A stretch of 49,779 nt of DNA, from NCBI GenBank assembly GCA_016788065.1, contig JAEUTI010000021.1, positions 1-49,779 of the forward strand, given 5' to 3'. The translations under genes were made by a program, and so were the position numbers. The notes beneath the pieces are model-generated. The model ran no database searches. It was not told the DNA's origin and worked only from the letters and a program-made list of their open reading frames with translations. Shown piece after piece: positions 449-49,779 of the stretch; position 1 is the stretch's first letter; the number at the start of each line of letters is the position of its first letter. This DNA is from Bacteroidia bacterium (GTDB taxonomy: Bacteria > Bacteroidota > Bacteroidia > AKYH767-A > OLB10).

Positions 449-871
449 TTAATCTTCCGTGATAGGAATTTTCACAGATTTGGTACCCGAAGTTTCAGTA
501 ATGGTAACCGGAATTCCACCTTTAACACGTTCGGCGATGCTGACATCCCAACCGGTCATGAACACAAAGTAATTTCCGCATTTAAGGCTATCAACAACAA
601 CTTTAATTGAATCGAGATCACCCACAGCGATGTAATCATACAAAGCGGGGTTATCGCCGGGAAACTCACTCGTGTTATATTTTATCATAGCAGAGTCGGG
701 GTATGATGCAATACCGGGAATTGGTTCGCCATGATGTTCCGGAAAAAAGGAAACTGTTACCTGTCCACCTCTGCCGGCAACACAGGCAGGAGTATTATCC
801 TCATCTTTATCATCTTTACAAGCTGTAAAGGACAGTGTTGCAGCCAGTGCAATCATTAATTTAAATTTCAT
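449..871 (-). CDS. Small predicted surface lipoprotein with a His-His pair
   Basis: This 140-residue protein starts at the ATG at 871. A longer reading from 904 would overlap the preceding gene and put 11 polar residues before the signal peptide. Residues 1-17 form a lipoprotein signal ending in SFTAC, so Cys18 is probably lipidated. The next residues (KDDKDEDN) match the acidic export signal known for surface lipoproteins in Bacteroidetes. The mature part is predicted beta-rich, with a conspicuous EHHGEPIPG stretch (His46, His47) and a YD pair near the middle. It is the last gene of the group that contains the MbnP-like protein, 19 bases after the beta-barrel gene. A metal-related role is inferred from the paired histidines and the neighbours. 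I do not recognise a characterised homologue. Confidence 0.7.
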   Translation of the reverse strand: MKFKLMIALAATLSFTACKDDKDEDNTPACVAGRGGQVTVSFFPEHHGEPIPGIASYPDSAMIKYNTSEFPGDNPALYDYIAVGDLDSIKVVVDSLKCGNYFVFMTGWDVSIAERVKGGIPVTITETSGTKSVKIPITED

Positions 872-890
872 AGGGCGAATTTTAATATGA

Positions 891-1820
891 TTAGAAATGA
901 ACATTCAGACTGAGATAATAAGAAACACCATCTTCAGGTGTATTCTCTGATAAATTATGATAGAAGGGCATCCGGCAATCGGTGCTTACTGAAAATGCTC
1001 CATAATAGGCATCAATTCCAACAGCGCCAAACATAGAATAGCCGCCGGTACCATACTGACTTATTCCATTGCGTTCATCCTTTTTACCACCTTCAAATAC
1101 AACGCCGGAATGAGGGAAAAGTTTGACATTACCAAAGTCAATTTCATAGAAGACTCCGGGATTAACATTTAATGTATTTCCATATCGGTAATCTTCGCTG
1201 TTTTTACCATTAATCTTAACACTGGCATCGGCATTCCAGCCAAGGCGGTTGTATTTTCCGATATAAGAAACTGCTAATAATAGATCGTAAGAACCGGTAC
1301 CTGAAAAAAGGTGATCAGACATAGGAAAATCAGCTACCTCATCACCTTTGTACTTACCGGTAGGAACTTTTATTCCGGCTCCAGCAAAAAGTCGGTGACG
1401 TACCGTTAAAGAGTCCTCTGGAATGGTATTGGCTACCTGATAAAAAGCCAGAACCGATAAATCATCCAATGCTTTTTCAGAAATCGTTTTCTGATTATAT
1501 TCGAGAATATTAAAACTGTAAGGCATAGTTGCAACCAATTGTATTTGAGGTATCGGATAAACCCTTGCATACAATTCTGTAGTTTGAAACCATTCTTTCA
1601 ACATACCTGAGTAACTCACACTGGTAGTACCGTGATCGAGGTGAGTTGTTCTTAAATTGGGAGATTGAATATCTATTTCGGCGGTCCGATATGAATATCG
1701 GAGACCAACCGTATTTTTATTATATCCGGGATTTAATCCCAGATAACAATTACAAAAATCACATGCATGCGCAGATGAGAATGTAATAAAAAAGAGGAAA
1801 CCTATAAGTTTATATTTCAT
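891..1820 (-). CDS. Outer membrane beta-barrel protein with N-terminal CxxCxC motif
   Basis: This 309-residue protein has a signal peptide (residues 1-19, ending SSAHA). The mature chain begins directly with CDFCNC, so Cys20, Cys23 and Cys25 form a CxxCxC cluster at the exposed N-terminus. The rest has alternating aromatic and polar strands typical of an outer membrane barrel and ends in LSLNVHF, with the usual terminal Phe. Bacteroidota genomes often carry barrels starting with a similar Cys-rich stretch next to MbnP-like and redox genes; I know this from family context and have not tested it here. The gene follows the MbnP-like gene, with a strong hairpin in the 56-base gap, and precedes the small His-His lipoprotein. 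Transport or anchoring of a metal-bound factor is an inference. Confidence 0.75.
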   Translation of the reverse strand: MKYKLIGFLFFITFSSAHACDFCNCYLGLNPGYNKNTVGLRYSYRTAEIDIQSPNLRTTHLDHGTTSVSYSGMLKEWFQTTELYARVYPIPQIQLVATMPYSFNILEYNQKTISEKALDDLSVLAFYQVANTIPEDSLTVRHRLFAGAGIKVPTGKYKGDEVADFPMSDHLFSGTGSYDLLLAVSYIGKYNRLGWNADASVKINGKNSEDYRYGNTLNVNPGVFYEIDFGNVKLFPHSGVVFEGGKKDERNGISQYGTGGYSMFGAVGIDAYYGAFSVSTDCRMPFYHNLSENTPEDGVSYYLSLNVHF

Positions 1821-1831
1821 ATTGGTAAATT

Positions 1832-1862
1832 AAACCGGCGGCAGTTTTGCCGCCGGTTTTTT
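1832..1862 (-). terminator. Strong hairpin between MbnP-like and barrel genes
   Basis: A perfect 12-bp inverted repeat (1832-1843 with 1848-1859, core ACCGGCGGCA) has a four-base loop. On the minus strand the stem is followed by TTTAATTT, a weak U-tract. It sits after the MbnP-like stop codon and before the barrel start. It could be a partial terminator lowering downstream expression or an mRNA-stabilising hairpin. On the plus strand it is followed by a run of T, but no plus-strand gene feeds into it. Confidence 0.65.
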
Positions 1863-1876
1863 AAGACTGTAATAGC

Positions 1877-2662
1877 TTATTCTTCGTGAATATGATCGTA
1901 AGAAATCATATTGGCATAATTATCGGCAACAATTGAAGCGTTGGCATTTGGAGACATAATAGTTGCAGGGAAAGTTGCTACATTTATTGTTGTTGGAGAT
2001 TCGAACAATTCCAAAACATCAGTTACAAGATGTAATTCGCGATGAGTGTTATTAGCCAGATTCAGGATATCACCATCGAATTCGAGTTCAACTTGTCTGT
2101 AATTTACAAAAGCACCTTTGTATCCTCCGATGTGATAGGTAAGATCATTAGTAGGAATTGATGGAGATGTAGCTTCCAGTTTAACGAAAATGTAACCACT
2201 ATTCCATGACCAGAACATGCCATTTGCAGGATCAAGCGCACCTGTTTGAGCACCACTGCAATTTCTGGTACTATCAACACCAATAAGGAAACGAATTGCT
2301 TTAAACTGACCTGTTCCCAGACTATCGAAGTCGATAAACCAGGTATTCTCGTCAGAAGCATCAACATAATAATAGGTGTCTTCAATTGTTACAACCGAAT
2401 TGTCGGTTTTTACAAATTCAATATTAGAGATATAATATTTGAACATTGAAGCTGTGATTTGGTCACCATTTGCAGTTGTGTATGTTGAATCGAGATAAAA
2501 TTTCTGATTACCAGCCAGGTGATCCAGTTCTATGGTCAACTTAGGAGCTACAGTTGGGGTTGGGGTTGTTGGATTGTCATCATCATCGTCTTTACAAGCG
2601 TTGAAGAGAGTTACTGTTGCCAGCAAAACCAGCATGAGGGCAAAATTGAGCTTTGTTTTCAT
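1877..2662 (-). CDS. MbnP-like surface lipoprotein
   Basis: This 261-residue protein starts at the ATG at 2662, which begins a clean lipoprotein signal peptide; a longer reading to 2743 adds 27 polar residues. The lipobox is LFNAC with Cys23, followed by KDDDDD, a strong match to the Bacteroidetes surface-lipoprotein export signal. The mature sequence resembles the MbnP family. It has an early beta segment (LTIELDHLAG), a FKYYISNIEF segment, a YYYVDAS stretch, a Trp-rich MFWSWNSGYIFVKLE stretch, GGYKGAFVNYRQVELEF and a C-terminal HIHEE tail. Methanotroph MbnP binds copper and acts with the dihaem enzyme MbnH. No MbnH-like peroxidase gene is in this window, so the partner is missing or elsewhere. 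The family call is fairly secure; copper binding is inferred. Confidence 0.75.
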   Translation of the reverse strand: MKTKLNFALMLVLLATVTLFNACKDDDDDNPTTPTPTVAPKLTIELDHLAGNQKFYLDSTYTTANGDQITASMFKYYISNIEFVKTDNSVVTIEDTYYYVDASDENTWFIDFDSLGTGQFKAIRFLIGVDSTRNCSGAQTGALDPANGMFWSWNSGYIFVKLEATSPSIPTNDLTYHIGGYKGAFVNYRQVELEFDGDILNLANNTHRELHLVTDVLELFESPTTINVATFPATIMSPNANASIVADNYANMISYDHIHEE

Positions 2663-2889
2663 GTTTTTGTTTGAATAGTGTATAATTAATTTTATGTTAG
2701 TTTGAGAATGAATAATTCTGTATTGCGATGTTATTGAATTCAAGGTGATTTCAAAAATGGATGAGCCGTCCTTTTCGAAACCTAAGACTTGTGTTCAGAA
2801 ACAGGCTATTGAGCCTGAAACTAATACAATAACAAAATGACAGAATGAATAGTTACACCCGACCAAAATCGAATGTTAACCCTGAAAAA

Positions 2890-3273
2890 TTAACAGGAAG
2901 GGGGATGAAAAACTGCATTTGCTGCAGTAGTTGGAATAACGGTGGAAAAATGATAATAGAGTCTTACGAAAGGCGTGTTAATTCCACTTACTTCCGACTC
3001 TGCTTTTTCAGAAAATAGAACATCAACAATAGTTTTTACTTTGGTGGATGAATCCTGTTGTCTGGACTCATCTTTTTGCAATTCTTTTTTCAATTGGCAC
3101 TTCCCTTCACAATGTTTTTCAGGAAGGTTTTTGTTCTCACAAAGAAAAGAAGCAATGAAGTTTTTATTGACATAATATCCGGTAACAATCAATTGCTTGC
3201 TGAAAGCCTGCAACAGAAATCCTGAGATCAGAAATATGGATATGAGTCGAATCACGATACAAATATAAGGCAT
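2890..3273 (-). CDS. Membrane-anchored protein with CENK-x6-CxGKC motif
   Basis: This 127-residue protein starts at the ATG at 3273, which begins a hydrophobic N-terminal segment (residues 4-22); the upstream option at 3330 adds 19 residues and overlaps the terminator of the glutamine synthetase gene. After the hydrophobic segment comes a compact Cys motif: FLCENKNLPEKHCEGKC, with Cys45, Cys55 and Cys59. A Lys/Glu-rich linker follows, and the protein ends in FHPPSC. Short proteins with this motif recur in Bacteroidota next to metal or haem uptake genes. That is family-level recollection and no function is established. It lies 227 bases upstream of the MbnP-like gene on the same strand. A thiol-based metal-binding or sensing role is inferred. 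Confidence 0.65.
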   Translation of the reverse strand: MPYICIVIRLISIFLISGFLLQAFSKQLIVTGYYVNKNFIASFLCENKNLPEKHCEGKCQLKKELQKDESRQQDSSTKVKTIVDVLFSEKAESEVSGINTPFVRLYYHFSTVIPTTAANAVFHPPSC

Positions 3274-3312
3274 AAAATAAATGAGAAGTGCATGATTCTT
3301 GTCATAAAATAA

Positions 3313-3346
3313 CAAAGCCCTGAAAATCAATATTTTCAGGGCTTTG
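3313..3346 (-). terminator. Terminator of the glutamine synthetase gene
   Basis: A 15-bp perfect stem (3313-3327 with 3332-3346, core AAAGCCCTGAAAAT) has a four-base loop and lies just past the glutamine synthetase stop codon. On the minus strand it is followed by a T-rich stretch (TTATTTTAT). It separates the glutamine synthetase transcript from the thiol-motif gene at 2890-3273. Confidence 0.85.
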
Positions 3347-3359
3347 AGAAGCTATTATT

Positions 3360-5552
3360 TTAGCGTACTGCGAGCATTTCGCGGTACTTTGGGAGTGGCC
3401 AGTAGGCATCATCTACGAGCAATTCCAACTTGTCAACATGGTAACGGATGGTATCAAAATGAGGCCTTACTTTATCGCAATAAGCAATTGCTTTGGAACG
3501 GACATTTTCAATTTTGTTAGCCTTGCGACGGTCATCGGTCATAGCATCGGTGCTAGCCTTAATTACATTCAAGTGTTCCGAAATCTCCTTAATAAGGTCG
3601 AGTTGGGTCTTGAATGAATCAGCTTTCAAACCTATTGCTTTAATACCTTCTACATTCCGGATTAAATCGGATTGATAACGAATAGCAGCAGGAATAATAT
3701 GATTCAATGACAGGGTTCCAATCACACGACTTTCGATCTGGATTTTCTTGGTATAAGTTTCCAGCAAAATATCGTGACGAGCTTCTAGTTCTCTTTCAGT
3801 GAAAATATTGTTCTTTTTGAACAGTTCCTTCGACTTCTTCGAAACATAAGCATCCAGTGCAGGTGGAGTTGTAGTAATATTCGACAACCCTCTTTTCTTT
3901 GCTTCCTTCACCCATTCATCACCGTAACCATTTCCTTCGAAACGAATATTTTTTGTTTCAACGATATACTTACGAAGCACTTTCAGAATCGCTTCATCCT
4001 TCTTAATATTTTTCGCAATCAATGCATCCACTTCTTTGCTGAATTCTTTCAGCTGATTCGCCATGATGGTATTTAGTACCAGCATTGCATTAGATGAATT
4101 TGCAGATGATCCTACTGCACGGAATTCGAATTTATTTCCTGTAAATGCAAATGGAGAGGTTCTGTTACGATCGGTATTATCGAGCAGGATTTCAGGAATA
4201 CGTCCGATATTAATTTTAATCTGAGTTTTTTCTTCCGGAGTCAATTTTTCTTTCACTACAGTCTTTTCAATTTCATCAAGAATCTGACTTAACTGTGAGC
4301 CGAGGAAAATCGACATGATAGCAGGAGGAGCTTCATTGGCACCTAGACGATGGTCGTTGCTTGCTGAAGCAATACTTGCACGTAACAAATCGGCATGCTC
4401 ATGAACAGCTTTAATCGTATTGATAAAGAAGGTAAGGAATTGCAGATTCGTTTTTGGAGAATTTCCGGGAGAAAGCAGATTTTTTCCGGTGTTTGTAGTC
4501 AGAGACCAGTTATTGTGTTTTCCTGATCCATTGATACCCGCATATGGTTTCTCATGCAACAAAACTTTGAAGTCGTGGCGACGTGCAACTTTGTCCATTA
4601 CATCCATCAGCAACTGATTGTGATCAACGGCCAGATTAATTTCTTCAAACACCGGAGCACACTCAAACTGACTTGGAGCTACTTCATTGTGACGAGTTTT
4701 AAGAGGAATGCCTAATTTGAATGCTTCAATTTCAAATTCCACCATAAAGGCATACACCCTTGAAGGAATAGAACCAAAATAATGATCTTCGAGTTGCTGA
4801 CCTTTTGCAGGGATATGTCCGAATACGGTACGACCTGAAGTCTCGAGATCGGGGCGAGCATTAAACAATGCAATATCGATAAGGAAATATTCCTGTTCAA
4901 TACCCAGTGTTGCATTTACCTTAGTAACATTTTTATCGAAATACTGACAAACAGGAACAGCAGCCTGATCGAGTTCGTGAAGTGCTTTCAGAAGAGGCGC
5001 TTTGTAGTCGAGTGTTTCGCCTGTGTATGAAACAAAGATAGTAGGAATGCAAAGTGTTTTTCCTGCATTGCTTTCCATGATAAACGCCGGTGATGTCGGA
5101 TCCCATGCAGTATAACCACGTGCTTCAAATGTATTTCTGATACCACCGTTTGGGAAGCTTGATGCATCAGGCTCTTGCTGAACGAGAGCAGAAGAAGAGA
5201 AATTTTCAATTGGTTTATTGCCATCACTCAATTCAAAGAATGAATCGTGCTTTTCAGCAGTTGATCCGGTAAGAGGTTGAAACCAGTGTGTATAATGAGT
5301 AGCACCTTTTGATATTGCCCAGGCCATCATCGCTGTTGCAACTTGTTCGGCAACCCTGCGCTCAATTTGTTGTCCACTTTCTACTGCTTCAAGCACCTGC
5401 TTAAACGACTCTTTAGAGAGGAATTTCTGCATGGTGTTTTTATCAAACACATTTTGTCCGAAGTAATCTGAGATCTTTCCTTCAGGAGCCGGTACCGTTC
5501 TTGGTACTCTTGTTAGTGCACTTTCAAGTGCTTTGAACCTTAGAGTTGACAT
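3360..5552 (-). CDS. glnN: Type III glutamine synthetase
   Basis: This 730-residue protein is the length expected of GSIII and much longer than GSI (about 450). It makes glutamine from glutamate, ammonia and ATP in the cytoplasm. Visible landmarks are the N-terminal RFKALESA segment, LGIEQEYFLID (metal-ligand glutamates), RHNEVAPSQFECAP, the GSGKHNNWS loop, and ANEAPPAIMSIFLG followed later by RNRTSPFAFTGNKFEFR. All are typical of the Bacteroidetes GSIII family. The start is the ATG at 5552 (MSTLRFKA); an upstream reading to 5603 would pass through the promoter. It is monocistronic, with a terminator at 3313-3346 and a promoter preceded by spaced direct repeats, so nitrogen-responsive control is plausible but inferred. 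Confidence 0.95.
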   Translation of the reverse strand: MSTLRFKALESALTRVPRTVPAPEGKISDYFGQNVFDKNTMQKFLSKESFKQVLEAVESGQQIERRVAEQVATAMMAWAISKGATHYTHWFQPLTGSTAEKHDSFFELSDGNKPIENFSSSALVQQEPDASSFPNGGIRNTFEARGYTAWDPTSPAFIMESNAGKTLCIPTIFVSYTGETLDYKAPLLKALHELDQAAVPVCQYFDKNVTKVNATLGIEQEYFLIDIALFNARPDLETSGRTVFGHIPAKGQQLEDHYFGSIPSRVYAFMVEFEIEAFKLGIPLKTRHNEVAPSQFECAPVFEEINLAVDHNQLLMDVMDKVARRHDFKVLLHEKPYAGINGSGKHNNWSLTTNTGKNLLSPGNSPKTNLQFLTFFINTIKAVHEHADLLRASIASASNDHRLGANEAPPAIMSIFLGSQLSQILDEIEKTVVKEKLTPEEKTQIKINIGRIPEILLDNTDRNRTSPFAFTGNKFEFRAVGSSANSSNAMLVLNTIMANQLKEFSKEVDALIAKNIKKDEAILKVLRKYIVETKNIRFEGNGYGDEWVKEAKKRGLSNITTTPPALDAYVSKKSKELFKKNNIFTERELEARHDILLETYTKKIQIESRVIGTLSLNHIIPAAIRYQSDLIRNVEGIKAIGLKADSFKTQLDLIKEISEHLNVIKASTDAMTDDRRKANKIENVRSKAIAYCDKVRPHFDTIRYHVDKLELLVDDAYWPLPKYREMLAVR

Positions 5553-5571
5553 TTTTTTTATAGATTTTCGA

Positions 5572-5603
5572 CAAAAGTATATATTTTTAGGGGGGTAAGT
5601 CAA
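5572..5603 (-). promoter_or_regulatory. Promoter of the glutamine synthetase gene
   Basis: On the minus strand TACTTTTG (5579-5572) matches the Bacteroidetes -7 consensus TAnnTTTG exactly. A TTG (5603-5601) lies 21 bases upstream as the -33 element. The start would fall near 5568, giving a leader of roughly 15 bases before the ATG at 5552. Confidence 0.65.
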
Positions 5604-5669
5604 GAAAAATGATAAATTTTATCGACACCCCCTGTTAAAAAGGGGGGTAAGGGCGAAAAAAATGATAAA
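5589..5669. repeat. Spaced direct repeats upstream of glnN
   Basis: Two copies of AGGGGGGTAAG (5589-5599 and 5641-5651), each followed by AAAAATGATAAA (5605-5616 and 5658-5669), are offset by 52-53 bp. A C-run between them (ACACCCCCT) is complementary to both G-runs. They overlap and lie upstream of the glnN promoter, and the second copy ends 14 bases from the stop codon of the NDH-2 gene. They look like paired operator half-sites about five helical turns apart. Confidence 0.6.
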
Positions 5670-5682
5670 ATTTTCTAAAATC

Positions 5683-6963
5683 TTACTTTTTTCCTGAAAA
5701 TGGCCGGATTATTAACCTTACTGCACGGTCGTAGGAGAAATAACTGACCATCCAATTGACAAACACGACGAGTCTGTTCCGGAAACCCACCAAAGTCATT
5801 AAATGGATTGCCATCCAAAGAATCCAGGCAAAAAATCCACTAAGTTTCAGGAAAGGCAACTCCGCTACGGCTTTGTTTCTGCCAATTGTGGCCATAGCAC
5901 CTCTGTTGGTATAGGAAAATGGTTTCCAATTTACTGTATCTGATGATTGAATCAGGTTGGCTGCAAGGTTGGAAGCCTGTTGAATAGCAACCGGCGCAAC
6001 CATTGGATGGCCATTTGGGTACTTTTCTTCAGACATAAACGCCAGATCACCAATTACAAAAAGGGAACTCTCCCCTTCTACTCTATTGAACCGATCCACT
6101 TTTACCCGACCATTCCTCAACAAAACAGCTTCCGGAATACCGGGAATAGAAGCACCTTTTACGCCAGCTGACCATATTAAGGTGCGGGTGGTGATGGAAT
6201 TCCCATCTGCCAAAGTGACTTTCTTCCCATCGAATTGCTTCACCGGATTATTCAGCATCACCTCAACACCCATTGTTTGCAGGGCGTGCAAAGCTTTCAC
6301 TGAGGAAAAATCAGACATCCCCGCAAGGAGACCTTTACCGGCTTCAACTAGTATTATCCGGGTTTGCATGAAATTAATTTCGGGATAATCGTTTGGAAGA
6401 ACATGATTTCGAAGTTCACATAGGGCTCCGGCAGTTTCAACACCTGTTGGTCCGCCACCTGCCACGACGATATTCAACAATTCTTCTTTATCGGCTCCCG
6501 GTTCAAGAGCCTGCTCCAGATTTTGAAGAATCAAGCTACGGAGATCCAACGCATCGGTGACAGACTTCAGCGGCATGGCTTTGGCTCCAAGCTCATCCAT
6601 ACCAAAAAAATTATTGGTTGATCCGCAGGCCAGAATCAGGTAATCGTATGAAATTGGACCTGCATCTGTTTCAAGGACTTTAGCATGGACATCAACACGC
6701 TGAATTTCAGCCATTCTGAAATAAAAATTGGTATAACCCTGAAATATTTTGCGTAAAGGATATGCAATTGAATCGGGCTCTAACCCACCGGTTGCCACCT
6801 GATAAAGTAAAGGCTGGAATGTGTGGAAGTTATTTCTGTCGATAAGTACGACCTGAAAGTTCTTGTTTCGAAACTTCTTCACCATGGTTATTCCGCCAAA
6901 GCCACCGCCGGCAATAACGATTCGCTTTAATGGGGAATCGGGCACAATTGAAGAAATACTCAT
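5683..6963 (-). CDS. ndh: Type II NADH dehydrogenase (NDH-2)
   Basis: This 426-residue FAD enzyme oxidises NADH and reduces quinone at the inner membrane without pumping protons. The N-terminal FAD-binding loop is IAGGGFGG (residues 17-24), followed by an acidic strand end LIDRNNFH. The second nucleotide-binding motif is VAGGGPTGVETAG (167-179). LFVIGDLAFM is the conserved FAD-contact region, and VAIQQASNLAANL follows. The C-terminal 60 residues contain a hydrophobic stretch (FFAWILWMAIHLMTLVGF) that probably anchors it to the membrane, as in other NDH-2 enzymes. It lies 43 bases downstream of the tatA gene on the same strand, so the two are probably cotranscribed. The start at 6963 is the only sensible ATG before the FAD motif. 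Confidence 0.95.
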   Translation of the reverse strand: MSISSIVPDSPLKRIVIAGGGFGGITMVKKFRNKNFQVVLIDRNNFHTFQPLLYQVATGGLEPDSIAYPLRKIFQGYTNFYFRMAEIQRVDVHAKVLETDAGPISYDYLILACGSTNNFFGMDELGAKAMPLKSVTDALDLRSLILQNLEQALEPGADKEELLNIVVAGGGPTGVETAGALCELRNHVLPNDYPEINFMQTRIILVEAGKGLLAGMSDFSSVKALHALQTMGVEVMLNNPVKQFDGKKVTLADGNSITTRTLIWSAGVKGASIPGIPEAVLLRNGRVKVDRFNRVEGESSLFVIGDLAFMSEEKYPNGHPMVAPVAIQQASNLAANLIQSSDTVNWKPFSYTNRGAMATIGRNKAVAELPFLKLSGFFAWILWMAIHLMTLVGFRNRLVVFVNWMVSYFSYDRAVRLIIRPFSGKK

Positions 6964-7006
6964 AAAAAAAGTGAATTGGTACTCTTATTAAAACAGAAAG
7001 GATGAA

Positions 7007-7264
7007 CTAAAGTTCATCCTTTGTCGATTCAATATCTTTTTTCACATCCCGAATCATTTTCTTTTCTTCTTCGAGATTTACACCTTGTTTGATGTCGTTT
7101 TCAATCCCTTGCATGGCATCTTTAACTTCCCGCATTCCTTTTCCGAGTCCACGGGCTAAATCAGGAATTTTTTTGGATCCAAAGAAAAAGAGCACAAAAA
7201 GAAGGATCACCAGCAATTCGCCGGTACCAATACTTTCCAGAAAGAGGAGCATGCACAATTTCAT
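7007..7264 (-). CDS. tatA: Twin-arginine translocase subunit TatA/TatE
   Basis: This 85-residue protein has one N-terminal transmembrane helix ([15 protein letters not shown], about residues 15-29), the conserved FG hinge, and an amphipathic helix ([21 protein letters not shown]) followed by a charged tail. This is the classic TatA/E layout; it forms the pore for folded twin-arginine substrates in the inner membrane. Two ATG codons are possible: 7264 (listed) and 7252 (MLLFLES). The promoter -7 element at 7269-7276 puts transcription start near 7265, so the 7252 start would leave a short leader while 7264 would be leaderless. The NDH-2 gene follows at 43 bases. No tatC is in view. Confidence 0.9.
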
Positions 7265-7268
7265 ACAG

Positions 7269-7276
7269 CAAAGATA
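7269..7276 (-). promoter_or_regulatory. -7 element of the tatA-ndh promoter
   Basis: TATCTTTG on the minus strand (7276-7269) matches the TAnnTTTG consensus exactly. It lies five bases before the first possible tatA start codon. No clear -33 TTG is at the expected spacing. Confidence 0.5.
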
Positions 7277-7328
7277 AGCAATCCGATAATGAATGACAGG
7301 AACCGGTTAAAAATATCGGTGCTTTGCC

Positions 7329-7336
7329 TATTTTTG
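7329..7336 (+). promoter_or_regulatory. -7 element of the yitT-like gene
   Basis: TATTTTTG (7329-7336) matches TAnnTTTG and ends seven bases before the ATG at 7344. The transcript would then have a leader of only a few bases, or start translation at the ATG pair 7371/7374. It is divergent from the tatA promoter 53 bases away. Confidence 0.4.
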
Positions 7337-7343
7337 ACCCCAT

Positions 7344-8258
7344 ATGACGCTATTTAAGAGACGCAGCACCATGATGTCGCCGAAAACCTATCGCAGGAAG
7401 GTTTTCACCAAGAATATACTAATAGACATCTTTATGGTCATTTGTGGTATATTCAGTGCTGGTCTGGGATTGAAAGGCTTTTTGCTTCCAAACGATTTCA
7501 TTGATGGTGGTGTAACAGGAATTTCACTGCTCATTGCACAACTGACTAATGTAGGTTTACCTTTCCTCATTGTGATTTTCAACATTCCATTTATCATCAT
7601 GGGATATTTTCAGATGGGAAAAAACTTTGCCTTTAAAACCATATTGGCGATTGTAGGACTTGCACTGTGTCTTTATTTTGTAGAGTTCAATATTGTGACC
7701 AACGACAAACTCTTAATTTCGGTTTTCGGAGGATTTTTTCTTGGAATGGGAATCGGATTATCGGTGCGTGCCGGATGTGTTATCGATGGCACCGAGATAT
7801 TGGCTTTATATTTAAGTAAACGTACACCCGTCTCTATTGGTGGTGTAATTCTTATCATAAACATTATTATATTTTCGTTTGCCGCTGCTTTGCTGGGCGT
7901 AGAACCTGCATTGTATTCCTTGCTCACCTACCTTGCAGCATCTCGAACGGTTGATTTTATTGTTCATGGTATAGAAGAGTATACTGGAGTGACTATTATC
8001 TCTTCTAAAAGTGAGGAAATAAGAAAAATGATAACAGAGCGTTTGGGACGAGGTGTTACTGTATATAAAGGCAAAGGTGGTTATCGTCAAAAGGGTGAAG
8101 AAGAAAAAGAGGTAGATGTAATTTTCACAGTAGTAACCAATTTGGAGATGCCAAAACTCAAAAGTGAGATTCAGAAAATCGATTCGAAAGCTTTTATAGT
8201 AATGAACACGGTGAACGATACCAAAGGCGGAACAGTTAAGAAGAGAAGATTAACTTAA
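7344..8258 (+). CDS. YitT family membrane protein (DUF161 with DUF2179 domain)
   Basis: This 304-residue protein has about five or six transmembrane helices in residues 25-215, with the conserved family pattern GLKGFLLPNDFIDGGVTGIS near the first helix and GLSVRAGCVIDGTEILALYLS in the middle. The soluble C-terminal part (about 215-290, GVTIISSKSEEIRKMITERL to FIVMNTVND) is the DUF2179 domain, a ferredoxin-like module. Family members are widespread; transport is suspected but no substrate is agreed. The start could be 7344, or 7371/7374 where two ATG codons adjoin; the longer form is listed. The gene stands alone and ends at a shared terminator facing the secDF gene. Confidence 0.85.
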   Translation: MTLFKRRSTMMSPKTYRRKVFTKNILIDIFMVICGIFSAGLGLKGFLLPNDFIDGGVTGISLLIAQLTNVGLPFLIVIFNIPFIIMGYFQMGKNFAFKTILAIVGLALCLYFVEFNIVTNDKLLISVFGGFFLGMGIGLSVRAGCVIDGTEILALYLSKRTPVSIGGVILIINIIIFSFAAALLGVEPALYSLLTYLAASRTVDFIVHGIEEYTGVTIISSKSEEIRKMITERLGRGVTVYKGKGGYRQKGEEEKEVDVIFTVVTNLEMPKLKSEIQKIDSKAFIVMNTVNDTKGGTVKKRRLT

Positions 8259-8314
8259 CTTAATAGTTCCTGCATCTGTACAAAATTTAAGGATTATTGT
8301 CAGCACCAAAAAAT

Positions 8315-8342
8315 AAAAGCCCCGGAAATCCGGGGCTTTTTT
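8315..8342. terminator. Bidirectional terminator between yitT-like and secDF genes
   Basis: An 11-bp GC-rich stem (8315-8325 with 8330-8340, core AAAAGCCCCGG) has a four-base loop. It has a T-run on the plus strand and an A-run before the stem that serves as the T-run on the minus strand. It can end both converging transcripts. Confidence 0.9.
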
Positions 8343-8369
8343 ATTGAATAGATAATTTTCTATCCGCTA

Positions 8370-11360
8370 TTATTTTTTCACTTCATCTTTCTTGCTGCGA
8401 TCGAGATCGACAACAATTGGAGTTGCAATGCACAGAGATGAGTAAGTACCGACAACGATACCGATCATCAGAGCAAAAGAGAAACCACGAATTACTTCAC
8501 CACCAAAAACGAAGATAGCAAACAATACGAAGAAGATAGTAAGCGAGGTATTGATTGTTCTGCTTAATGTAGCATTCAATGCATTATTGATAATTTCTTT
8601 CAATTCTGATTTGTGGTGGATGCCAAGGTATTCACGGACCCTGTCAAATACAACCACCGTATCGTTAATGGAGTAACCCATTACGGTAAGGATGGCAGCA
8701 ATGAACGCCTGATCAATTTCAAGAGAGAAAGGAAGGATTCCCCAGAATAAGGAGAAGATTGAGAGAAGAATTAAAACGTCATGCGTGAGGGCAACAATAG
8801 CTCCTAAACCAAATGTCCATTTACGGAATCGCAACAGGATATAGAGGAATATTACAATCATAGAGAAGATAATTGCATAACCAGCAGAAACCTTGATATC
8901 ATCTGCAATGGTAGGTCCAACTTTTTGCGAACTCATAATTTGAGTTGCATCAATACCTAAACCTGAAGTTATTGCTGTCTCAACTTTAGCATCAGCTTCC
9001 TGGCTATTATCATCGATCAGATAAGAGGTAGTAATTTTCACCTGATTACCTGCACCAAAAGTTTTAACTTCAGGAGCACCGCCACCAAAAGGTTGAGTAA
9101 GTTTTGCACGTACATCAACGGTAGAAACTGTTTCGTCGAAACGAACGACATACGAGCGACCACCTTTAAAGTCGACACCGGTACTGAACCCACGAACAAT
9201 CATGGAACCGATACCTATAACGATTACTATACTTGAAATTGTATAATACAATTTACGCTTTGACACCCAGTCGAATTTGATATTCTTGAAAGCATTCTCA
9301 GTCATAGGAGTTGAGAATCGGATCACCCTATTCTTAGCAAGTTGCCATTCAAAAATTAAGCGGGTAATAAAGATTGATGAGAACAACGAAGTTAAGATAC
9401 CGATGATAAGCGTAGTTGCAAATCCCTGAATTGGACCTGAACCGAAAACGAAGAGGATGATACCGGAAAGTAACGTTGTTACGTTGGAGTCGATGATAGA
9501 AGAGTAAGCCATTTTAAATCCGTCGGTAATAGCCAAACGAACCCCTTTTCCGGCTCTTAACTCTTCCCGGATACGTTCATAAATAAGGATGTTGGCATCG
9601 ACCGCCATACCGAGGGTAAGTACGATACCGGCAATACCGGGTAAAGTAAGTACGGCTCCCATGGAAGCGAGTACTCCGAATATAAAGAAGACGTTTGCAA
9701 ACAGTGCAAGATCGGCAACCCAACCTGCATTGCTATAATAGAATACCATGAATACCAGGATCAATACCAAGGCAATCACAAACGAAATCAAACCTGCATT
9801 GATAGCTTCCTGACCAAGAGATGGACCTACGATTGCCTCTTCAACAATACGTGCAGGAGCAGGCAATTTACCTGCTTTCAGAATATTTGCAAGATCTTTT
9901 GCTTCATTGATTTCAAAACTTCCGGTGATAGATGAACTACCTCCGGCAATTTCTCCCTGTACTGTTGGGAAAGAATAAACGTTATCATCAAGTACAATTG
10001 CAATTGATTTACCTACGTTTTCAGCAGTAAGTCTTCTCCAGCTTTGTGCACCTTCAGGATTCATGCGCATCGCGATTTCAGGTTTTCCATTATATGGTCC
10101 GAAATCCTGGCGTGCATCAGAAATTGCTCCTCCATCAAGTGGTGGCTGATTATCACGGCCATTGGTTTTGATAGCAATCAATTCCAGAGCTTTTGATTCC
10201 GGTGTTGGAGGCTTAACACCCCAAAGGAATTTAATGTTCTTAGGTAATTTAGCCAATACATCTTCACGATGTAAAAAGGCATTCACTTTAGAAGTATCCT
10301 TAATCAATGAATAACCAACAACTGGTCCTTTCATATATTCGCTTTGTCCTTGTGCATTTTGAACTATGGCAGGACTTAAAACAGCAAATAATGGATTCTC
10401 TTTTGCAAACTGCTCGAAAGACTGATTTGCTGAATCTGCAGCAGCAGTAGTAGTATCGCTTTTTATCTGATCAAGCAGAGCGGTTTTAGCAGTGTCAGGA
10501 GTTACCATTGTAGAGTCCGTTGATGCAACTGGAGCATCCATAGGAGCAGTCGTGGTATCAGCCTGAGTCGCAAGAATAGAATCTTTTTTCTCAGCAGATT
10601 TTAAAGTCTCATTGATAGTATTGAGATAATTGAAAGCATCTTTGTTCTCATAAGTTTCCCAGAACTCCAAACGTGCAGTTCCCTGAAGCAGTTTACGAAC
10701 ACGTTCCGGTTCTTTAACACCTGGAAGTTCAACCAGAATACGTCCTGATCCTAATTGCTGAATGTTAGGCTGGGTTACTCCGAACTTATCGATACGGGTA
10801 CGAAGAATGTTGAATGAGCGGTTGATAGCTGCATCTGATTCTTCTTTGATAACTTTCAACACTTCCGCATTGGTAGAGTTGAAAGTTACTCTATCCTGCA
10901 ACTCCATAGTACTGAATACAGCAGCAAGCTTTGCATTCGGATCAGCTGCAGCAAAAGCTTCTCCAAAAAGAGTCACGAAATCCTTCTGACTATTTTTCTG
11001 AAGTTCAATAGCATTTGCAATTGCCTTATTGAAAGTTGGGTCGGTACTGTTATTGGACATAGATCTGATCAGATCAACTACCGAAACTTCTAAAGTTACG
11101 TTCATACCACCCTTAAGGTCGAGACCCAGGTTGATTTCACGTTCTTTACATTCGCGGTAAGTATATTCCTTTACCAACAGGTTGTAAGCGGGTAATGATG
11201 ATACAGAATCGATGTAAGCCTGATAGGCTTTAGCATCTCCACCTGTAGCTTCCCGCGCCTTGCTTTCAACGTTTCTGGTTACCAGTGTAAATGACAACTG
11301 GTACAGACAGACAATAGCCAGCGTGATTGCAAAAAATTTAATAGCGCCTTTACTTTGCAT
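8370..11360 (-). CDS. secDF: Fused protein translocase subunit SecDF
   Basis: This 996-residue protein joins SecD and SecF, the proton-driven accessory of the Sec translocon. The SecD half shows INLGLDLKGGMNVTLEV (residues 76-92), the P1-domain segments RTRIDKFGVTQPNIQQLG and RILVELPGV, and the membrane signature GMAVDANILIYERIREE. The SecF half starts at about residue 700 with STGVDFKGGRSYVVRF and contains GYSINDTVVVFDRVRE. The fusion, rather than separate genes, is usual in Bacteroidota. A low-complexity Thr/Ala/Asp-rich insertion lies at about residues 255-310 in the periplasmic domain. The gene is monocistronic, with a textbook promoter (11396-11426) and a bidirectional terminator (8315-8342). 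Confidence 0.97.
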   Translation of the reverse strand: MQSKGAIKFFAITLAIVCLYQLSFTLVTRNVESKAREATGGDAKAYQAYIDSVSSLPAYNLLVKEYTYRECKEREINLGLDLKGGMNVTLEVSVVDLIRSMSNNSTDPTFNKAIANAIELQKNSQKDFVTLFGEAFAAADPNAKLAAVFSTMELQDRVTFNSTNAEVLKVIKEESDAAINRSFNILRTRIDKFGVTQPNIQQLGSGRILVELPGVKEPERVRKLLQGTARLEFWETYENKDAFNYLNTINETLKSAEKKDSILATQADTTTAPMDAPVASTDSTMVTPDTAKTALLDQIKSDTTTAAADSANQSFEQFAKENPLFAVLSPAIVQNAQGQSEYMKGPVVGYSLIKDTSKVNAFLHREDVLAKLPKNIKFLWGVKPPTPESKALELIAIKTNGRDNQPPLDGGAISDARQDFGPYNGKPEIAMRMNPEGAQSWRRLTAENVGKSIAIVLDDNVYSFPTVQGEIAGGSSSITGSFEINEAKDLANILKAGKLPAPARIVEEAIVGPSLGQEAINAGLISFVIALVLILVFMVFYYSNAGWVADLALFANVFFIFGVLASMGAVLTLPGIAGIVLTLGMAVDANILIYERIREELRAGKGVRLAITDGFKMAYSSIIDSNVTTLLSGIILFVFGSGPIQGFATTLIIGILTSLFSSIFITRLIFEWQLAKNRVIRFSTPMTENAFKNIKFDWVSKRKLYYTISSIVIVIGIGSMIVRGFSTGVDFKGGRSYVVRFDETVSTVDVRAKLTQPFGGGAPEVKTFGAGNQVKITTSYLIDDNSQEADAKVETAITSGLGIDATQIMSSQKVGPTIADDIKVSAGYAIIFSMIVIFLYILLRFRKWTFGLGAIVALTHDVLILLSIFSLFWGILPFSLEIDQAFIAAILTVMGYSINDTVVVFDRVREYLGIHHKSELKEIINNALNATLSRTINTSLTIFFVLFAIFVFGGEVIRGFSFALMIGIVVGTYSSLCIATPIVVDLDRSKKDEVKK

Positions 11361-11395
11361 GAATCTAAGTATTAATGTTCCGTTTTTTAGAGGCG

Positions 11396-11426
11396 CAAAT
11401 ATAGGATTAAAAGTGAACTAATACAA
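11396..11426 (-). promoter_or_regulatory. Promoter of secDF
   Basis: On the minus strand TTG (11426-11424), a 20-base spacer and TATATTTG (11403-11396) match the Bacteroidetes TTG-N19/20-TAnnTTTG promoter. Transcription would start near 11392, leaving a leader of about 30 bases before the ATG at 11360. Confidence 0.75.
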
Positions 11427-11592
11427 TATCAGGGCAATCCTTTCATTATATTGATATTCAGTTAATTAATAATTAACCTAAACAGTCGGGTGCCGGTTTA
11501 TGTTGTTGCCTTATTGCCATTAATTGAACCCAAGGGTACATATTAGATGGTATTCAGACAGTTAATTATCTGCATAAATCAAACCAGCAACC

Positions 11593-11600
11593 TATCTTCG
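11593..11600 (+). promoter_or_regulatory. -7 element upstream of the ABC exporter operon
   Basis: TATCTTCG (11593-11600) differs from TAnnTTTG at one base. It ends eight bases before the apparent TTG start codon at 11609, so the leader would be about five bases. Confidence 0.4.
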
Positions 11601-11608
11601 CACCGATT

Positions 11609-12517
11609 TTGGAAAAGCAACCGGTAATAGAAATAAGAGACCTTTATAAGTCCTATAAAGGGTTTGATGCCGTTAAAGGTATCAACCTCACCGTTTACAA
11701 AGGCGATGTATTTGGCTTTTTAGGTCCAAATGGTGCCGGAAAAAGTACTACCATCCGAATGATGATGTCGCTGATTAAACCTACTTCGGGAGAAATCAGA
11801 ATTTTCGGTAAACTTTTGTCAGAAGAGCGGGAATCAATATTAAGAAAAATTGGTGCAATTGTCGAAAAGCCTGATTTATACGGGTTTATGTCGGCATACG
11901 ACAACCTGAGACTTTTAGGAAAGATGAGCGGTATTCAACCAACCCACGCCGGAATAATGGATGTTTTGGAACTTGTTGGACTGAAAGACAGGGCAAAGAG
12001 TAAGGTAAAGACTTTTTCACATGGGATGAAGCAAAGGGTCGGATTGGCGCAGGCACTGATCCATGATCCGGAATTAATTATTTTGGATGAGCCTACCACG
12101 GGACTTGATCCGCAGGGGATGGTGGAAATTCGGGATTTGATTTTAAAACTGAGTAAGGAGTATCATAAAACCATTTTGCTTTCCTCACATATATTAAATG
12201 AAGTGGAATTGGTTGCCAACCGGATGGTAATTATAAACAAAGGCAAAGTTGCGATTGAGGGTGATGTGAAAGAATTGCTGAATCGCGATGAAATGAAAGT
12301 TACCATTGAGGTGTCTGATATCACCAAAGGTGTGGAAGTTATTAAGAACAGAGGATTGAGCAACGCTATGCGGGATACAGCAGGAAATAAAATTATCTTG
12401 CATATCAGTCAAAATGAAATGGCAGGTATAAACAGAGCATTAATTGAAGGAGGCGTAGATGTTGTATCCGTTGTTCCTTTGCGTACGCTGGAAGAATATT
12501 TTTTAAATTTAACCTGA
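11609..12517 (+). CDS. ABC transporter ATP-binding protein
   Basis: This 302-residue protein is an ABC ATPase of the ABC-2 exporter type. It shows Walker A GPNGAGKST (39-47), a signature loop FSHGMKQR (136-143, SHGMK instead of LSGGQ, common in this branch), Walker B LIILDEP (156-162), the D-loop GLDP, and the switch histidine in LLSSHIL. The C-terminal region after residue 215 is the accessory domain usual in this subfamily. The only start near the 5' end is TTG at 11609; no ATG is upstream in frame near the promoter, and the next ATG lies after Walker A. The permease gene follows after 5 bases, then a LolA-like gene, so this is a three-gene operon. The substrate is unknown. Confidence 0.93.
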   Translation: MEKQPVIEIRDLYKSYKGFDAVKGINLTVYKGDVFGFLGPNGAGKSTTIRMMMSLIKPTSGEIRIFGKLLSEERESILRKIGAIVEKPDLYGFMSAYDNLRLLGKMSGIQPTHAGIMDVLELVGLKDRAKSKVKTFSHGMKQRVGLAQALIHDPELIILDEPTTGLDPQGMVEIRDLILKLSKEYHKTILLSSHILNEVELVANRMVIINKGKVAIEGDVKELLNRDEMKVTIEVSDITKGVEVIKNRGLSNAMRDTAGNKIILHISQNEMAGINRALIEGGVDVVSVVPLRTLEEYFLNLT

Positions 12518-12522
12518 AAATT

Positions 12523-13359
12523 ATGTTCTCACTAATAAGGATTGAACTATACAAAATTTTCAGCCGGATCCGGACATTCATTGGATTCATTGCAATTGGA
12601 TTGCTTGTGCCTTTAATTCAGGTTGCCCTTTTTATTGATGGGGAAACCTACATTGAATTCAGTTTGCAAAATCTTAAAGAAGCATTCGATTTTCAGGGTA
12701 ACTTATTAAACGGTTACCTTGCTTGTTATATAATTCTGGCTACACTGTATGTGCATATTCCATTTCTGATCACATTGGTAACAGGCGATTTACTGGCAGG
12801 TGAAGCTGCAGGTGGGACATTCAGGGTATTACTGACGAGACCGGTGAGTCGCACGAAACTACTATTTGCGAAATTTATTTCCGGACTCATTTATACTGCT
12901 GCATTAATATTTTGGATGGCATTAATAAGTTTGTTACTAGGAATTGCCATCATGGGAACCGGCGATTTAATTGTCATAAAAAATACGGTTTATATTTTTG
13001 CAGAAGATGATGTTCTCTGGCGATTACTCGCTGCATTTGGATTTGGATTAATTGCCATGTGGTGTGTAGCATCCTTATCATTTATGTTTTCGTCATTTGC
13101 CGATAATTCAATAGGTCCGATTATTCTTACGATGACCGTGATTATTTCTTTCATCGTAATTTCTGCAATTGATCTGAGCTTATTCCGAGTTGTGAAACCT
13201 TTTCTGTTTACCAACTATATGGGAAGCTGGAAATTATTTTTTGAAACACCTGTTAACTACGATAAAATTTTGATGTCGGCCGGTGCATTAATTGCACATA
13301 TAATTTTATTTTTCGGCATTGCCTGGTATAATTTTAAAAAGAAAGATATTCTTACGTGA
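12523..13359 (+). CDS. ABC-2 type transporter permease
   Basis: This 278-residue integral membrane protein has six predicted helices: about 18-38, 64-86, 118-145, 165-188, 198-218 and 248-268. The pattern GEAAGGTFRVLLTRPVSRTKLLFAKFISG, just before the third helix, is the characteristic cytoplasmic segment of ABC-2 permeases that contacts the ATPase. It is the membrane partner of the ATPase encoded 5 bases upstream. Its stop codon overlaps the start of the LolA-like gene by one base (TGATG), so translation is probably coupled. A family with RTRPVSR-like segments includes NatB-like and copper- or lipid-linked exporters; the cargo cannot be told from the sequence. Confidence 0.9.
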   Translation: MFSLIRIELYKIFSRIRTFIGFIAIGLLVPLIQVALFIDGETYIEFSLQNLKEAFDFQGNLLNGYLACYIILATLYVHIPFLITLVTGDLLAGEAAGGTFRVLLTRPVSRTKLLFAKFISGLIYTAALIFWMALISLLLGIAIMGTGDLIVIKNTVYIFAEDDVLWRLLAAFGFGLIAMWCVASLSFMFSSFADNSIGPIILTMTVIISFIVISAIDLSLFRVVKPFLFTNYMGSWKLFFETPVNYDKILMSAGALIAHIILFFGIAWYNFKKKDILT

Positions 13360-14069
13360 TGAAAAAACACTTTCGGTTTTCTATTTTATTGGTGCTTGCA
13401 ATACTGACTTTTAAGGCAAGTGTTGCTCAGGAAAAAAATGCTGCTTTGATTCTTGAAGGTGTTAAGAAAAAATTTGCTTTGGTTAACGAATATGAAGCCA
13501 GCGTAAAAATAAAAGTGGATGTGAATTTTGTGAAAATTCCTGAAAAATCAGGTAAGATCTGGTATATGCAGCCCGGTAAAGTAGTTGTAAAAACGCCAGG
13601 GTTTTCATTACTACCAAAACGAGGCATGAACTTCACTCCTAATCAACTTTTTTCAGGTGACTATACTGCACTTTATGCGCGCGAGGAACAATATGCCGGC
13701 GTTACCACACAGGTTATTAAAGTGATTCCTAACAGTGATGCCGATGATATTATTTTGTCGACATTGTGGATAGACACACAAAGAAATGTGATCCGCAAAT
13801 TAGAAACCACCACCAAGTCTGAAGGAACCTTTTCCATGCAATTCCGGTTTCCTGCCGAAATTAAAACATACGATCTACCAGATCAGATTTTATTCAATTT
13901 CGATATTCGAAAAAATGAGTTGCCATTAGGACTAACCGGCGATTTCGAAAATCAGGGTAACAAAGACAAAACCCCAAAAAATTCGAGAGGAACTGTTACC
14001 ATCACGTACCTGAATTATCTTGTAAATCAAGGGAAAGCCATTCCTGTCTTTCAGAAGAAATCCAAATAA
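13359..14069 (+). CDS. LolA-like periplasmic outer membrane lipoprotein-sorting protein
   Basis: This 236-residue protein has a signal peptide ending SVAQ (about residue 23). The mature part fits the LolA/LolB half-barrel fold: an initial helix (NAALILEGVKKKFALV), then strands such as YEASVKIKVDVNFVKIP and SGKIWYMQPGKVVVKTPGF, and a mid-protein TQVIKVIPNSD stretch. LolA carries lipoproteins across the periplasm; related proteins bind other lipids. ATG at 13359 is preferred to the GTG at 13356 because it overlaps the permease stop codon in the coupled form TGATG. Being in an operon with an ABC-2 exporter suggests that this LolA-like protein receives a lipid or lipoprotein from it, but that is inference. 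Confidence 0.75.
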   Translation: MKKHFRFSILLVLAILTFKASVAQEKNAALILEGVKKKFALVNEYEASVKIKVDVNFVKIPEKSGKIWYMQPGKVVVKTPGFSLLPKRGMNFTPNQLFSGDYTALYAREEQYAGVTTQVIKVIPNSDADDIILSTLWIDTQRNVIRKLETTTKSEGTFSMQFRFPAEIKTYDLPDQILFNFDIRKNELPLGLTGDFENQGNKDKTPKNSRGTVTITYLNYLVNQGKAIPVFQKKSK

Positions 14070-47303: not shown

Positions 47304-49779
47304 TTATTCCACAATCAACCTGATTGTCCGAGGTATTCCACTATCACTAACTCTGATGAGATATATTCCGGCATTCAATCCGGTGGTATTAAAGGTTACT
47401 TTGGTTTGACCTTTTGCTACTAAATTTGTGCAAATGGTTTTTAACTGGCGACCTGTCATGTCATATAATTCGGCGCTCATAAGCACTTCTTTGTGATAGA
47501 AGGTTTCAATTGCTACCTGACCTTTTGCAGGGTTAGGTGAAACCTGAAGCATATCAGATAAACGTGTGTCGTTGCAATTGATACTTACTGTTAATGAGTT
47601 TGAAATTTTAGAACAACCGTTTGCAGCTGTAACTTTTACATTGTAAACTCCGGGGTTCTTAGTGACATAAGTTAAGCCATTTGCTCCAGGAATATCAATT
47701 CCATCCATTCTCCACTGATAAATAGCACCTGCACCTGCTGTGGTATTCAGTGTTAAAGTAATATCGTCATAACAAGTAACCAATGGAATGTCGTGAGTGA
47801 TATTCGCAGTGAAGTTCAATACGGTAATTCTGGATTGATTGGAGAGTCCGGTACAACCTGTTAGCAGATTAGTAGCAACAACCTTAAACCTTCCGGTAGT
47901 TTTTGCATAGTAGGTTGCATTAGTAGCTCCAGCTATTGGCTGATTGTTACGATACCATTGGTATCCAACGTTACCTGACAAGTTTACTGATGCCGTTAAT
48001 AAAATGCTATCACCAATACACACATTATTGAATCCACCTGGAGAAACAGAAACCACAGGCAATGGATTTTTAGTAACTACAATTTTATTGGAATATCTTA
48101 AACCACAAGCAGTAGTTATCTGCATTTTATAATTACCGGATTTGTTTGCTACATAAGTTTGAGAAGTTGCTCCATTTATTGGTGCATTGTTTCTTAACCA
48201 CTGATAATTGGCTTCCGCAGATGAACTTAAAGTCACTGAACCTCCTGCACAGAAAGTAGTTGAACCCTGAGCAGTGATTACCGGTACCGAAACCTGAATG
48301 AAACTTAAAGTGGTGGTTACAATACTGTCGCAACCCGACTGTGTAGTTAAATTGGAAGTATATACACCCGGCTGACTAACAGTCTGGCCACTTGGAAGTA
48401 CATAACTTTGCCCGCTGCAAATTGAAACTGATTCTGCAGATTGAAACACATCATTCACTGTGAGGTTTGTTGTTACAATGCTGTCACAACCAGCCTGAGT
48501 TTGTAAGGTGCTGGTATAAGTGCCGGTTTGGTTTACAACAACACCATCAGGCAATGTGTAGCTACCACCTGCACAAATGGCCGCATTGGTTGTAGAAGCT
48601 GCAACTGAGTTGATAGTTAATGTTGTGGTAATAATGGAATCACAACCTGCTGTAGTCTGCAGATTTGATGTGTAAACACCACCGGTTGAAACCACCTGAC
48701 CATTTGGAAGTGTATATGATGAACCATCGCAGATAGAAACATTTTCTGCAAGAGCATAAACCGGATTGACAGTAACATTGGTAGTAATTACTGAATCACA
48801 TCCTGAAACTGAAGTGAGTATACTCACAAACGAACCTGCTACATTCACCGTGTTACCATTTGGCAATACATACGAAGCACCATCACAGATAGAAATATTT
48901 TCTACGAATGCATAAATCGGATTCAAAGAAAGATTGGTTGTTATCACTGAGTCACAACCTGAAACAGATGTAAGCATGCTCACATAAGTTCCTGCTGTAC
49001 TAACTGAATTTCCATTTGGAAGTGTATAAGAATTACCATCACAAACCGAAACATTTTCAACAAATGCATACATCGGATTTACGGTCAAGGTAGTAGTTAT
49101 AATAGAATCGCATCCTGCTGAAGTCAGTAAATTAGAAATGTAAACACCACCCGTTGAAACGACCTGACCATTCGGCAACAAGTAGGAATCACCATCACAA
49201 ATTGCAACACTTTCCTGCGAAGTAATAACTGAATTTACACTTAAAGTAGTTACAATTACGGAATCACATCCCAATGAACTCGTTAAAGTTGTGGTATAAA
49301 CACCTCCAACAGAAACTGAGGATCCATCAGGCAGCAAATAAGAACCACCTGAACATATTGATGCATTAACATTTTGTTGAGAAGGATCTCCTACATTCGT
49401 AATAATTGCCTGAGCAACTGCGGTACATCCGTTCACATCGGTTACAGTTCCTGTATAAGTTGCAGGAGATAACCCGGAGTTAAGTGCAGTTGTTACTCCA
49501 TTGCTCCAGTTATAAGAATATCCACCGGCACCACCGCCACCTGAAAGCGTTGCGCTTCCATTTGCATTGGCACAGGTTGCATTTTGATTTACAACAGCAC
49601 TTGCATTCAGTAATGATGGTTCAGTTATTGACCCATTCAAAGTAACCTGACATCCGATTGAATCGGTAACAACAACCTGATAATTTCCTGCGCCCAAACC
49701 TGTGGCAACAGCACCGGTTTGTACCGGATTAGTATTCCAGGAATAGGTGAATGGCGCAATACCACCTGTTGGTGTAACT
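47304..49779 (-). CDS. Giant surface protein with SprB, 52-residue and Ig-like repeats and a T9SS sorting domain; 5' end outside window
   Basis: The reading frame is open from the right edge to a stop at 47304, so about 825 codons of a longer protein are present; the N-terminus lies beyond 49779. From the N-terminal side the order is: two SprB-like repeats (GIAPFTYSWNTNPVQTG with AGNYQVVVTDSIGC, and GGYSYNWSNGV with TYTGTVTDVNGC); seven repeats of exactly 52 residues (48300-49373), each with two Cys and the pattern CxGxSYxLPxG with GCDS; three Ig/PKD-like domains (YQWLRNN, YQWYRNN and YQWRMDG segments); and a C-terminal type IX sorting domain (VSPNPAKG, YDMTGR, GIYLIRV). It is probably exported by T9SS and attached at the cell surface as an adhesin or gliding-type protein. 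No start can be assigned. Confidence 0.9.
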   Translation of the reverse strand, partial: VTPTGGIAPFTYSWNTNPVQTGAVATGLGAGNYQVVVTDSIGCQVTLNGSITEPSLLNASAVVNQNATCANANGSATLSGGGGAGGYSYNWSNGVTTALNSGLSPATYTGTVTDVNGCTAVAQAIITNVGDPSQQNVNASICSGGSYLLPDGSSVSVGGVYTTTLTSSLGCDSVIVTTLSVNSVITSQESVAICDGDSYLLPNGQVVSTGGVYISNLLTSAGCDSIITTTLTVNPMYAFVENVSVCDGNSYTLPNGNSVSTAGTYVSMLTSVSGCDSVITTNLSLNPIYAFVENISICDGASYVLPNGNTVNVAGSFVSILTSVSGCDSVITTNVTVNPVYALAENVSICDGSSYTLPNGQVVSTGGVYTSNLQTTAGCDSIITTTLTINSVAASTTNAAICAGGSYTLPDGVVVNQTGTYTSTLQTQAGCDSIVTTNLTVNDVFQSAESVSICSGQSYVLPSGQTVSQPGVYTSNLTTQSGCDSIVTTTLSFIQVSVPVITAQGSTTFCAGGSVTLSSSAEANYQWLRNNAPINGATSQTYVANKSGNYKMQITTACGLRYSNKIVVTKNPLPVVSVSPGGFNNVCIGDSILLTASVNLSGNVGYQWYRNNQPIAGATNATYYAKTTGRFKVVATNLLTGCTGLSNQSRITVLNFTANITHDIPLVTCYDDITLTLNTTAGAGAIYQWRMDGIDIPGANGLTYVTKNPGVYNVKVTAANGCSKISNSLTVSINCNDTRLSDMLQVSPNPAKGQVAIETFYHKEVLMSAELYDMTGRQLKTICTNLVAKGQTKVTFNTTGLNAGIYLIRVSDSGIPRTIRLIVE
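48300..49373 (-). repeat. Seven 156-bp repeats in the surface protein gene
   Basis: The first Cys of each unit recurs every 52 codons without exception (seven units). Units 2 and 5 are nearly identical in protein sequence (LPNGQVVSTGGVY), as are units 3 and 4 (LTSVSGCDSVITTN), so the order suggests duplication of a multi-unit block or gene conversion. Confidence 0.85.

Follow-up and report, generated by a model that had tools for sequence, protein, structure and literature searches.

The four minus-strand genes described here are most plausibly the MbnP side of an MbnP/MbnH copper system of Bacteroidota that has been split, its di-haem enzyme being encoded elsewhere in the genome; the probability of this reading is put at roughly 0.6. 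These genes belong to a widespread, apparently undescribed gene set that probably handles copper at the outer surface. The copper role is suggested by MbnP itself and by relatives of the first (thiol) protein, which head loci with TonB-copper-receptor-like and HMA genes. In a literature search, with most subscription papers outside its scope, neither an operon with the thiol protein and the barrel, nor an unlinked MbnH, nor a paper on Bacteroidota MbnP was found.

The window, that is, the whole stretch of 49,779 nucleotides that was analysed, is contig C80 of a 97-contig genome that is 100% complete. A sequence-only reading had described in it a unit of four consecutive genes, coding for a thiol-motif membrane protein, an MbnP-like lipoprotein, a barrel beginning with CxxCxC and a lipoprotein with a His-His pair. 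This description holds in each of its parts: all the open reading frames are present, closely spaced and in the order claimed (Table 1), the predicted mature barrel begins with CDFCNCYLGLNP, and the lipoprotein has a lipobox cysteine and the motif EHH. That the genes form one unit is borne out by a sister genome (locus L053), which has all four, and by the class-wide linkage of the thiol protein and the barrel to MbnP. The unit is flanked by a glutamine synthetase gene and by a TPR-type protein gene (1-390), and its downstream end is only partly visible because the latter gene is cut by the contig end. On the other side, a hairpin of 15 pairs followed by TTATTTTATG separates the unit from the glutamine synthetase gene and marks its start. 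No Bacteroidota-type promoter pattern was found in the four-gene region. The opposite contig end cuts a gene (47304-49778) for a secreted protein that is very long and rich in repeats and whose C-terminus is of the sorting type.

Table 1. Features of the four-gene unit and of its hairpins (window coordinates).
Feature	Position	Strand	Characteristics
Terminator-like hairpin	3313..3346	-	between glutamine synthetase gene and thiol gene
Thiol protein	2890..3273	-	N-terminal membrane segment; three invariant Cys (CxnnnPxxxCxGKC); C-terminal Pro-Pro
MbnP lipoprotein	1877..2662	-	PF20243; WxW at W151/W153, with M149 and H177
12-bp G+C-rich hairpin	1832..1859	-	between MbnP and barrel; z-score -4.6
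Outer-membrane beta-barrel	891..1820	-	predicted mature N-terminus CDFCNCY
Small lipoprotein, His-His pair	449..871	-	upstream ATG at 904 also a possible start

The second gene codes for a true MbnP. Its product matches PF20243 with 177 bits against a cut-off of 27 (E 5e-52), and it is assigned to this family rather than to the NCBIfam equivalog TIGR04052, since its 45 bits there fall below the cut-off of 140. A phmmer search of the PDB with the window MbnP found no relative, and the profile of the MbnP alignment reached the solved MbnP 7L6G at E 0.1 only; because these sequence searches were weak, folds were compared instead. The predicted fold matches 7L6G with Z 11.7 over 193 residues (rmsd 3.9; Z 6.5 for the next row, identity about 12%), in a model with a pLDDT of 66 in which the WxW loop is poorly modelled (pLDDT under 50). 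In the alignment, the window protein keeps the WxW motif, the preceding methionine (GMFWSWN) and a histidine, at positions conserved in 93% (M149), 99% (W151), 95% (W153) and 91% (H177) of 132 MbnPs. It is without the four-cysteine feature named for 7L6G and has one cysteine besides the lipid cysteine. According to a 2021 structure paper on the 7L6G protein, MbnH reportedly brings about the conversion of the first WxW tryptophan to kynurenine, and a histidine, a methionine and solvent are said to make up the Cu(I) site.

In an even sample of 247 genomes from the class, 179 had MbnP. Relatives of the operon were gathered from a barrel search of the order, named contigs and fetched regions, MbnH being defined here by two CxxCH motifs and membership of the CCP_MauG family. 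The usual gene order is thiol-MbnP-MbnH-barrel (L038, L039, L041, L044, L045) or thiol-barrel-MbnP-MbnP2-MbnH-lipoprotein (L032, L033, L035). Four operons (L039, L046, L048, L049) contain two divergent MbnPs each, and each group forms its own clade across genomes. In L164, L166 and L167, a small HMA-like protein (GNCxMCKKTIE), another possible link to copper, is encoded directly after MbnH. For the counts, 100 MbnP loci, taken among the matches listed from the upper part of the score list, were annotated with profiles built here, and genes in one same-strand run with MbnP were scored. The thiol protein was present in 28 runs, the barrel in 28, both in 25, MbnH in 73 and the lipoprotein in 13. 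The thiol-barrel association (Fisher p 7e-17) spans many families, although this value overstates the case because genomes that are related do not count as independent and high-scoring MbnPs are over-represented in the sample. The association of the lipoprotein with the thiol protein or MbnH was not significant. Thus, the co-occurrence on which the shared role was proposed to rest exists for three of the genes, while the lipoprotein is optional.

Gene order in the window is the canonical one, except that MbnH is missing from the slot between MbnP and the barrel. A search of it by tblastn with 30 MbnHs yielded no MbnH-like gene (best match E 0.004, 106 aa, at 30.1-30.4 kb), and the 56-base gap between MbnP and the barrel holds no MbnH remnant. 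In effect, the lack of a peroxidase-like gene noted in the sequence-only reading is real for the window but not for the system: most relatives have MbnH in the operon, often in that very slot, and both this genome and its sister encode one at an unlinked site. Since MbnH is absent from eight of the 25 thiol-barrel-MbnP runs, the arrangement in the window is a recurrent minority. The slot is occupied by the 12-bp hairpin, which is kept in the sister genome (G029) with a G-U pair. This hairpin is a possible attenuator or bidirectional terminator and may reduce the expression of the barrel and the lipoprotein relative to MbnP. Its T-run was scored on the plus strand only, and an attenuating role is uncertain because the run is better on this opposite strand.

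In the genome as a whole, there are three MbnPs (C80, C50 and C29) and two MbnHs (C29 and C34), which led to the rejection of a locus that is MbnH-free at the genome level. The unpaired MbnH (C34:50786-51826) adjoins a desaturase gene and a gene for a repeat-rich surface protein. It has two CxxCH motifs (SCGSCH and CASCH) and a CCP_MauG domain (169 bits against 25.6), and it matches the di-heme enzyme of PDB 6E1C at 4e-44; its best NCBIfam family is MbnH (TIGR04039), with 226 bits, below the cut-off of 363. Its identity is 54-62% to in-operon MbnHs of the main group, 42-53% to more distant ones and 63% to the G032 MbnH, with which it groups in the MbnH tree (96/91). In the MbnP tree, the window MbnP and that of G032 were not resolved together, nor were the nearest relatives of the former. 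C29 holds a linked MbnP/MbnH pair, which is an unlikely source of the enzyme, as it has its own MbnP and its MbnH is only 36% identical to the C34 protein of the in-operon type. This pair (L052, about 2863-13466) lies with an Rrf2-type regulator, subunits resembling NO reductase, a Ric/ScdA-like protein and an anaerobic ribonucleotide reductase (names assigned by eye), that is, in a nitrogen-oxide or anaerobic setting. On C50 (L051, 2510-6699), the third MbnP has no linked MbnH; its neighbours are a TonB-receptor-like gene in convergent orientation and a gene for a repeat protein that resembles LVIVD/choice-of-anchor proteins.

The sister genome shares the four-gene operon and also the lone MbnH, which has the same genes beside it, and it lacks the third MbnP. 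As it encodes two MbnPs and two MbnHs with one linked pair, the lone MbnH is matched to the operon MbnP by elimination, as far as the 97% completeness of this genome allows. Two further genomes are independent splits of MbnP from MbnH. In G032, of the same family, thiol-barrel-lipoprotein lies by the glutamine synthetase gene and an MbnP-MbnH pair is on another contig; the two contigs share the barrel start with one base different, so their joining is likely, not proven. In G118, from another family, the one MbnP is in a thiol-barrel-MbnP run and the one MbnH is unlinked. Each of G079 and G151 encodes a single MbnP and two MbnHs, of which at least one has no adjoining MbnP. By contrast, no clear pairing emerges in G089, G187 and G167, because the other MbnHs examined there adjoin other MbnPs.

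These last three genomes are in keeping with an alternative that we regard as unlikely, an MbnH-free variant in which the window MbnP works without kynurenine through ordinary metal ligands. In this view, the C34 gene would encode either a peroxidase unrelated to the system or an enzyme that acts for the C50 MbnP. The eight runs devoid of MbnH also fit this variant, as does the C50 MbnP, itself without a linked MbnH, which the C34 enzyme could serve. Nevertheless, the window MbnP has kept WxW, and the sister genome retains its lone MbnH in spite of having no MbnP of the C50 type. Moreover, the C34 protein is closest to the MbnHs of thiol-MbnP-barrel operons, which argues for the split system.

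The thiol protein reads CENKNLPEKHCEGKC...HPPSC. Its start was judged from an alignment of 21 relatives, and since their similarity begins near the GTG at 3255, this codon may be the true start. Residues C45, C55, G57, C59, P124 and P125 are invariant in 50 of 50 family members, and a Pfam search assigned the protein to no family. The family is present in 134 of the 247 class genomes and in 79 of 198 genomes sampled across the phylum. Around 38 thiol loci that were not picked for MbnP, there was a barrel of the same profile in 20, an MbnP-like gene in 14, a TonB receptor in 14, a YtkA-like gene in six and an HMA protein in four. One TonB receptor has the copper receptor model as its closest match (179 bits, short of the cut-off of 472), and such copper-receptor-like, YtkA and HMA neighbours support the copper reading independently of the window MbnP. 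Loci with a TonB-dependent copper receptor and a YtkA-like protein (L177, L178, L192, L193) are headed by the same thiol family, although they are without MbnP, MbnH or a CxxC barrel of the window kind, and the receptor checked there falls below the TIGR01778 cut-off. Thiol proteins also head TonB receptor genes best matched by siderophore-type models; consequently, copper is not exclusive.

Among 48 members of the barrel family, 98% have retained C20 and C23, which lie right where the signal peptide is predicted to be cleaved. The model of the window barrel is mostly strand, with the COG4313 channel 4RL8 as the nearest solved fold; the model is of low confidence and too weak for arguing transport mechanics. 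Pfam searches gave no family for the window barrel or lipoprotein, and PF13557 (Phenol_MetA_deg), with no match in the window barrel, matched four of 14 relatives weakly. Matches to the lipoprotein (E 1e-29 to 1e-43) adjoin the barrel or MbnH in relatives, and its H57 and H58 (numbered from the ATG at 904) are invariant in 17 of 17 members. As had been proposed, the barrel and the lipoprotein are outside the described MbnP/MbnH pair.

The siderophore-model receptors and PepSY proteins that follow some thiol proteins, together with barrel cysteines that could form disulfides, might suggest another metal, or mainly a redox or peroxide-stress module in which MbnH is a peroxidase and the cysteines are redox switches. 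This possibility appears somewhat less probable again than the MbnH-free variant, as the positions of the MbnP site are conserved and there are HMA, YtkA and copper-receptor-like neighbours. That the four genes came to lie together by chance and have unrelated functions is very improbable and, in spite of the optional lipoprotein and its lack of significant association, is refuted for the thiol protein, MbnP and the barrel by co-occurrence of the first and last in 25 of 28 cases each.

Under the split-system reading, MbnH, exported and loaded with haem, would oxidise the first tryptophan of WxW to kynurenine in trans. This would create a Cu(I) site and make MbnP a lipid-anchored Cu(I) protein. 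The thiol protein would be anchored in the inner membrane with its cysteines facing the periplasm, and it may pass copper between periplasm and surface together with the cysteine-tipped outer-membrane barrel, while the His-His lipoprotein may bind metal in an accessory role. As for the direction of flow, uptake has a slight edge over efflux or storage, given that relatives of the thiol gene often stand at the head of TonB receptor genes. More generally, we tentatively propose, at somewhat short of even odds, that the copper machine in the outer envelope of Bacteroidota is of a distinct kind and differs from the methanotroph pair. It would consist of a three-cysteine protein in the inner membrane, an outer-membrane channel tipped with cysteines, a lipoprotein that holds copper with kynurenine, and the di-haem enzyme that modifies this lipoprotein and could do so from an unlinked gene. 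MbnP is common in the sampled class, yet the solved example is from a methanotroph. The two families with near-invariant cysteines tied to MbnP are candidates for copper crossing the Bacteroidota envelope, and genomes that combine a single MbnP operon with a single unlinked MbnH are well suited to asking whether kynurenine can form in trans.

The MbnP/MbnH pair is known from methanotrophs (PMC3621798; structures 7L6G and 6E1C, families TIGR04052 and TIGR04039). The window locus shares with it the MbnP fold and the WxW motif, as well as a MauG-like di-haem enzyme of the MbnH kind in its own genome and in the operons of relatives. It differs in its unlinked MbnH, in the additional thiol protein, CxxC barrel and His-His lipoprotein, and in being without methanobactin genes. 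In MopE/CorA, a surface Cu(I) protein with kynurenine is encoded beside a co-transcribed di-haem partner gene (PMC3912023). The proposed model resembles this in pairing a gene of the di-haem peroxidase family with a surface protein that would hold Cu(I) by a kynurenine ligand. The MopE/CorA ligands are two histidines plus kynurenine, and the window MbnP had no match to 4BZ4/MopE in sequence or fold searches.

Finally, a parallel operon headed by the thiol protein and without MbnH is present at L181, L183, L184, L186, L187, L189 and L200. It encodes a different barrel (GVMISHxHPKGxW), a divergent MbnP-like protein and a small CxxxGCH haem-type lipoprotein, and it sometimes adjoins an HMA protein.
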